A stretch of 64,000 bases of DNA, taken from Candidatus Sumerlaea chitinivorans (GTDB lineage Bacteria; Sumerlaeota; Sumerlaeia; Sumerlaeales; Sumerlaeaceae). Shown piece after piece: positions 47,806 to 50,800 of this stretch. The DNA is taken from contig CP030759.1 of NCBI GenBank assembly GCA_003290465.1, positions 2,740,572 to 2,804,571 on the forward strand, read 5' to 3'. Position numbers and translations under genes: made by a program. Each line of letters begins with the position of its first letter. Position 1 is the stretch's first letter. A model generated the notes under the pieces. It saw only the letters and a program-made list of their open reading frames with translations, had not been told where the DNA came from and did no database searches.

Positions 47806-50800
47806 GTCGCGCCCCGCGCGGGCGCGTGGATTGAAACACTCTGTGCTTGCCTCGATTTTGGGCGTTGCACAGTCGCGCCCCGCGCGGGCGCGTGGATTGA
47901 AACCGTGCAGACGATATTTGAGTATTTGCCCCACGCCGTCGCGCCCCGCGCGGGCGCGTGGATTGAAACACCTCGACAACTACCGGATTACCAATCACCA
48001 TCGTCGCGCCCCGCGCGGGCGCGTGGATTGAAACATTCGGCATGGAAAAGCTATCGATATTATCCGTGTCGCGCCCCGCGCGGGCGCGTGGATTGAAACG
48101 CGAAATGAGTTCCATATAGCCAGACTCAGTTATGGTCGCGCCCCGCGCGGGCGCGTGGATTGAAACCAGCGTAGAGCCGGCCAATGGAGCGTATGGGGGC
48201 GTCGCGCCCCGCGCGGGCGCGTGGATTGAAACGTGGGCGTTTCTGTGCGATATGACGGGCTTGCATCTGGTCGCGCCCCGCGCGGGCGCGTGGATTGAAA
48301 CACGTAGAGTGCGACCTTGGGGAATCCCGCAAAGTGTCGCGCCCCGCGCGGGCGCGTGGATTGAAACATCCGGCCCATATGACTCGTGCGCTGACCGTGT
48401 TCGTCGCGCCCCGCGCGGGCGCGTGGATTGAAACCAGTACGGCTGGCAAAACACGGCGTGTGCAGGTGGTCGCGCCCCGCGCGGGCGCGTGGATTGAAAC
48501 CTCGTAGTAGGTAGGCGGCCCGCGTCAGCGACCGAGTCGCGCCCCGCGCGGGCGCGTGGATTGAAACCTTAGCCGCGCCGCGCAGCCCCTGCCCCCCTGC
48601 GGTCGCGCCCCGCGCGGGCGCGTGGATTGAAACGGCCTGCCTTGTATACGGTTGAGGAGCTCGACGAGGCGGTCGCGCCCCGCGCGGGCGCGTGGATTGA
48701 AACCGCGTAAAGAAAGGGGTAGGCAAAAAGAGATCCCGGTCGCGCCCCGCGCGGGCGCGTGGATTGAAACCTTAGCCGCGCCGCGCAGCCCCTGCCCCCC
48801 CTGGTCGCGCCCCGCGCGGGCGCGTGGATTGAAACCTGCCCTGCCACTCGCACAAAAATGCCGTCATCAAGTCGCGCCCCGCGCGGGCGCGTGGATTGAA
48901 ACTCAGTGTGTGGATGATAACGCAATCGAGTGTCGCGAGTCGCGCCCCGCGCGGGCGCGTGGATTGAAACATGCCGGACATGAGGAGTAAATAACCAAAC
49001 AAGTGTCGCGCCCCGCGCGGGCGCGTGGATTGAAACCCGGTGAGTCCCAGAGAAGCAATGCGCAGATGCGTCGCGCCCCGCGCGGGCGCGTGGATTGAAA
49101 CTTGTTTTCCTGGTGATTTATTTAGGTCATTCGGTGTCGCGCCCCGCGCGGGCGCGTGGATTGAAACTAACCGCATCATCACACCTCCTCTGCTTTCTCA
49201 GTGTCGCGCCCCGCGCGGGCGCGTGGATTGAAACTCTGGGACTCGCCGGCAAGCTCCGCCGAGCGCAGCGTCGCGCCCCGCGCGGGCGCGTGGATTGAAA
49301 CGCGTGTTTTGGGTGTAGTTCTGTTCGTGTGTGAAGGCGTCGCGCCCCGCGCGGGCGCGTGGATTGAAACGTCACCACTACTCCCCCACGCTTTGCCCAG
49401 CGAAGTCGCGCCCCGCGCGGGCGCGTGGATTGAAACGGTCAACCCGCGCAACAACCAACCAATTGCAAAACGTCGCGCCCCGCGCGGGCGCGTGGATTGA
49501 AACCCTCAACCTCATCCGCACCAAGGCCCAACACACGTCGCGCCCCGCGCGGGCGCGTGGATTGAAACCTTGTCAGTAATTACGAAGCCACACAGCTCGG
49601 CGTCGCGCCCCGCGCGGGCGCGTGGATTGAAACGTCTGAGATACCGATAGACGATAATGGTACAAGTCGTCGCGCCCCGCGCGGGCGCGTGGATTGAAAC
49701 CAGTGTTGGGGTGCTGCTGCAGCAGCGCAAGACCGGTCGCGCCCCGCGCGGGCGCGTGGATTGAAACAGCTGTCGAACCAAGCGGAGCTCACGGGGGAAC
49801 CCGTCGCGCCCCGCGCGGGCGCGTGGATTGAAACTGTGTGGTGGGACAACGTGAGCGACACCGACATGATCGTCGCGCCCCGCGCGGGCGCGTGGATTGA
49901 AACCCATATACAGCAGCTCATCTTTCAGACCAAGTGGTCGCGCCCCGCGCGGGCGCGTGGATTGAAACGCAACGAGTTGCCACTACCTGTTGGTGGCGAG
50001 ATGGTCGCGCCCCGCGCGGGCGCGTGGATTGAAACCTGGTGAAACAAAGCAAATCAAGGCGATTGCTGGGGAGTCGCGCCCCGCGCGGGCGCGTGGATTG
50101 AAACGTTGTGCACGATCCCAAAAGATCGTCGAAACTAGTCGCGCCCCGCGCGGGCGCGTGGATTGAAACTATAAAGATCGTCGAAACTACGAATGGAGGA
50201 AGGAGTCGCGCCCCGCGCGGGCGCGTGGATTGAAACCTGATGCGCTGCGGTCACGGCATAGACCGGGCGGGTCGCGCCCCGCGCGGGCGCGTGGATTGAA
50301 ACGCCGACAATGACGGCGAACTGCTCATCGATGACCGTCGCGCCCCGCGCGGGCGCGTGGATTGAAACACCGTGCCACGCATGCAAAGTCCGTAGCGACA
50401 AGTCGCGCCCCGCGCGGGCGCGTGGATTGAAACTTTTATAGTTGCGCACGATCCAAAAAGATCGTCGTCGCGCCCCGCGCGGGCGCGTGGATTGAAACCA
50501 GTTGTCTGCCTTCTCGGGACTTACGATGGTCCATGTCGCGCCCCGCGCGGGCGCGTGGATTGAAACGCTTCAGGAGCGGGCGGCGACCTATGTGGCGAAC
50601 TGTCGCGCCCCGCGCGGGCGCGTGGATTGAAACTCGTGCTATTATGCAGGTGTCAATAATGGATAGGAGTCGCGCCCCGCGCGGGCGCGTGGATTGAAAC
50701 AACGCGCAGGAGTTGCTGTCGACGATAGCATGCAGTCGCGCCCCGCGCGGGCGCGTGGATTGAAACACGGGTTAATCTGACAAACGATTTGGTAAACGTC

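Follow-up and report, generated by a model that had tools for sequence, protein, structure and literature searches.

Three spacers in a type I-C CRISPR array of Candidatus Sumerlaea chitinivorans, here named W35, W36 and W40, overlap one another on the same strand and, joined, span 55 nt of target. With a probability of about 0.78 we consider them to be successive I-C acquisitions, all from a single short locus in a mobile element that is polymorphic.

The window, i.e., the whole stretch of 64,000 nucleotides analyzed, is part of a genome that consists of a single contig of 3,289,105 bases. At positions 47806..53244 (+ strand) it contains an array of 82 identical 32-nt repeats (GTCGCGCCCCGCGCGGGCGCGTGGATTGAAAC), which separate 81 spacers of 32-39 nt. 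The repeat has the features of a type I-C repeat: a length of 32 nt, the end ATTGAAAC and an adjoining leader (47560..47805, + strand). The latter is related to the leaders of two other I-C arrays in the genome, A and B, to which it is 80-87% identical over the last 200 alignment columns (78-87% in all pairwise comparisons of the three leaders). Since this related leader lies at the left end of the window array, this end is the newest, and the window spacers were named W1 to W81 counting from there; W35, W36 and W40 are spacers 35, 36 and 40 of the initial annotation. Arrays A (5 repeats) and B (103 repeats) have the identical repeat on the opposite strand. Array A comes after an I-C operon that is complete (cas3, cas5c, cas8c, cas7, cas4, cas1 and cas2), and in the genome the I-C Cas proteins all score above the cut-offs of their models (TIGR01863, TIGR01876, TIGR02589, TIGR01587/TIGR01596, TIGR00372, TIGR03640 and TIGR01573). 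The window array belongs to this type I-C CRISPR-Cas system; the cas operon is about 120 kb away, and within the 64-kb window no cas genes were noticed.

Beside the I-C operon the genome harbors a type II system, which comprises cas9 (1045 aa), cas1 and cas2 together with a 60-repeat array whose spacers are 29-31 nt long (L026:9317-13735 and L027:184-4109). A fragment that resembles part of the I-C cas1 and is apparently a partial duplication lies between this cas9 and the I-C operon (L026:8696-8944; G000:C1:2675103-2675255). In the window, about 195 bases past the last perfect repeat, a degenerate repeat copy (53440-53471) agrees with the repeat in 24 of 32 bases and is perhaps the remnant of an older array end. 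Apart from noise, a search against Rfam matched nothing but the CRISPR repeat, and this below its cut-off.

The newest of the trio, W35 (50105..50137, + strand), contains the arms ACGATC and GATCGT on either side of the loop CCAAAA. W36 (50170..50204, + strand) has AAAGATCGTCGAAACTA in common with W35 and contains only the right arm. The oldest, W40 (50434..50466, + strand), has both arms and the loop CAAAAA. The overlap of W35 and W40 comprises 26 nt with an offset of 7, of which 24 are the same and two are mismatched; that of W35 and W36 comprises 20 nt in all, an exact 17-mer and three mismatches. The initial annotation had described the positions of the three spacers, both overlaps (26 bp with two mismatches at an offset of 7, and 17 bp) and the arms in W35 and W40 correctly. 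When the three are joined to a 55-nt sequence, columns 12 and 22 distinguish W35 from W40, columns 21-23 distinguish W36 from W35, and columns 21 and 23 distinguish W36 from W40; the first three bases of W36 are TAT, those of W35 at the same columns CCA and those of W40 CAA, of which two of three differ from W36. Because each spacer differs from each of the others, at least three templates (alleles or copies) are needed. The array contains more than one spacer taken from the same locus in different alleles, as expected of primed re-acquisition from escape variants.

The overlaps of the trio have scores of 20 and 17. In 20 shuffles of the window array the score never exceeded 12, and when all 187 I-C spacers were shuffled twelve times with their dinucleotides preserved, the maximum was 12-14. 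That they arose by chance, by duplication within the array or by misassembly has hardly any probability left. Identical repeats could in principle let recombination move spacers, and nothing else speaks for such an origin; the scores exceed those of all shuffles, and the copying of whole repeat-spacer units preserves the spacer ends and cannot give offset, partly mismatched overlaps. Offsets and shuffles together refute this explanation.

Related spacers form about a dozen groups, both inside single I-C arrays and across the three, and the trio is among them. Other spacers paired with scores of at least 14 are W12/W15/B10, B91/B95, W75/W77, B51/B81, W14/B47, W75/B101, B38/B45, W55/B53, W80/B89, B61/B78 and B23/B71, of which the weakest, with a score of 14, border on what chance can produce. 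Many such groups across the arrays of the genome support well what had been surmised from the trio, namely that one target was sampled repeatedly in several variants. W12 (48568..48601, + strand) shares its target with W15 (48771-48803) and with B10 of array B (in L018); here one sequence of 30-33 nt was acquired three times, differing only at its ends. W75 (52777..52812, + strand) was taken from the same protospacer position as W77 (52911-52943) and overlaps with B101 on the opposite strand. Overlaps of I-C with II-C spacers were found for B86/C57 and B46/C14; with at least two II-C spacers overlapping I-C spacers, the I-C and the type II systems have apparently recorded invaders in common. 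A second spacer family is built around the motifs TCATGTTA / GTTATCAT and includes W55 (51437-51469), B53, B45, B38 (L018) and C24 (L027). It varies by internal rearrangement rather than by point changes, one II-C spacer bears its motif in reverse, and it possibly stems from a repeat-rich, non-coding region of a target.

Within the arrays the related pairs are clustered: 6 of 9 lie within 7 spacers of each other (p about 0.0006 versus random positions; about 0.002 when only one pair per cluster is counted and about 0.01 when the trio is left out). This proximity indicates that variants were sampled in bursts.

In W75/W77, B91/B95 and B62/B72 most differences are in one codon phase, and those between W75 and W77 are mostly synonymous in one frame. 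The stretch sampled by the trio might likewise be part of a protein-coding gene, in which case its palindrome would be incidental. This is compatible with repeated sampling of one locus, and we regard it as possible, though on balance unlikely. Besides the coding behavior of several other variant groups in the genome, it is favored by frame +1 of the joined sequence, which is open and in which the C/T change alters no amino acid. However, an open frame of 18 codons is nothing unusual, in any frame two or more of the four variable columns miss the third codon positions, and a degenerate search of viral contigs for KIVETTNGG gave no match.

Alternatively, the target could be a conserved structured element (an operator, an origin, the end of a mobile element or an RNA hairpin) present in several diverged copies per genome, different copies of which were sampled by the spacers; this appears improbable to us. 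The joined sequence contains a longer, imperfect inverted repeat (TAGTTGCGCACGATC/GATCGTCGAAACTA), whose score is reached by only 1 of 400 dinucleotide shuffles, and its predicted fold is more stable than that of shuffled sequences on both strands (z −2.2 and −3.8). These two results argue for a real palindrome, but the sequence is stitched together from different alleles, and in the W35 allele the inverted-repeat score is lower, 6 versus 8. The 6-nt loop accounts for three of the four variable columns (p 0.014), a bias that is confounded with the seed of W36, and the fourth (C/T) retains a G-U pair, which is only one wobble-type change in the trio. The differences are not all spaced by three, unlike those in several of the coding-looking groups. 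Against a structured element stand that W36 has a single arm, that a TTC PAM in the template of W36 would break a middle pair of the left arm, and that a second copy was found nowhere in the sequences searched.

The initial annotation had placed the emphasis on a conserved stem-loop. The arms in W35 and W40 are real; their conservation carries little weight, short arms being ordinary among spacers: arms of at least 6 bases are present in 8 of the 187 I-C spacers, where 6.2 are expected from shuffles. Nor is the identity of the arms in W35 and W40 telling, since it is expected between near-identical alleles. The arms are probably a coincidence; at most they belong to the target without a demonstrated part in its sampling. 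That the trio stems from a multi-copy hairpin element of a virus or satellite, which owing to its structure is a hotspot of I-C uptake, we hold to be very unlikely. Two other readings of the hairpin were dropped: an intrinsic terminator, as there is no run of T after the stem, and a tRNA-like arm, as loop and stem lengths do not fit.

For repeated sampling of one variable locus, the bases next to the protospacers and at the start of the spacers are of interest. The PAM of type I-C systems is of the TTC type and lies 5' of the protospacer. From overlaps on opposite strands (W75/B101 and W19/W22) the 5' flanks TTC and TTG could be read, which fit this PAM. The flanks of W35 and W36 in the sibling alleles are ATA and ATC, neither of them PAM-like; in several cases the sibling flanks deviate. 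Given normal PAMs for W35 and W36, the templates of both must have differed from the siblings at the flanks, too. That the spacers were inserted flipped, with GAA downstream, was discarded because two independent flips would be needed. The seed of I-C spacers comprises positions 1-5, 7 and 8 (PMC5071653). All three mismatches between W35 and W36 are at positions 1-3 of W36, at its seed end and inside the seed, which is one of 1140 possible placements; the same positions are also the very edge of the overlap, where the homology of the templates may simply end. The mismatches of W40 with W35 are outside the seed. Among other pairs from the same position an enrichment in the seed (5 of 12, p 0.09) is suggestive only. 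Judged from these sequences, the trio looks as if the target had escaped by a change of PAM or seed and had then been sampled anew.

We therefore propose the following course of events, in which W40 would have been acquired first, then W36 and then W35. The source element, most likely a virus or a plasmid, would have returned in variant form. The older spacer would match the later variant only imperfectly, in its seed or PAM, and thus fail to stop it, and the imperfectly matched spacer would then prime the uptake of a new one from the same element. Repeated sampling of the target was probably primed, although a naive, unprimed re-acquisition would leave the same spacers. As no protospacer was found in the sequences searched, a common origin in one element, the actual PAMs and the succession of allele changes are seen only indirectly, through the spacers.

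The initial annotation had suggested looking for the joined sequence of the trio in metagenomes and viral contigs of the same habitat; in the viral contigs scanned no target locus was found. In these contigs there was no match to ACGATCCNAAAAGATCGTC, to two relaxed hairpin patterns, to the core of W12/W15/B10 or to a peptide pattern of B91/B95; AAAGATCGTCGAAACTA occurred in 6 stretches with homology not extending beyond it, and GATCGTCGAAACTACG once, by chance. Phages and plasmids searched with the joined sequence gave no match better than E = 1, and phages searched with the first 45 window spacers (omitting W15, which is nearly identical to W12) none better than E = 0.6. The genomes of 84,980 species yielded one chance match, on a WWE3 contig, in which homology stops at the pattern, and in forty genomes of the phylum only the window array itself was matched.

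What we propose has precedents. In Legionella pneumophila, pairs of overlapping I-C spacers target the element LME-1, the older member having a PAM or seed mismatch, and primed I-C acquisition was shown experimentally (Rao et al., 2016; PMC5071653). This case shares with C. Sumerlaea chitinivorans the subtype of the system and the overlap of several spacers on a single element; moreover, spacers of other CRISPR types, there within the species, match the same element. The two cases differ in that in Legionella the element is known and priming rests on experiment, whereas here priming is inferred from spacers, and in that here three spacers overlap within 55 nt. In hot-spring mats the viral variants differ by few, mostly silent changes in the sequences targeted by CRISPR (Heidelberg et al., 2009; PMC2612747), and such changes are also seen in several of the spacer groups described here; there virome reads were matched to spacers, whereas we compared spacers with spacers. 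The trio thus fits an already described process, its special points being the three overlapping spacers in 55 nt and the palindrome.

Together the three I-C arrays, and in part a II-C array, can be read as the history of one host and the families of invaders that returned to it. The genome is a natural record of re-sampling and escape, in which groups of related spacers yield information on PAM and seed without a known target.
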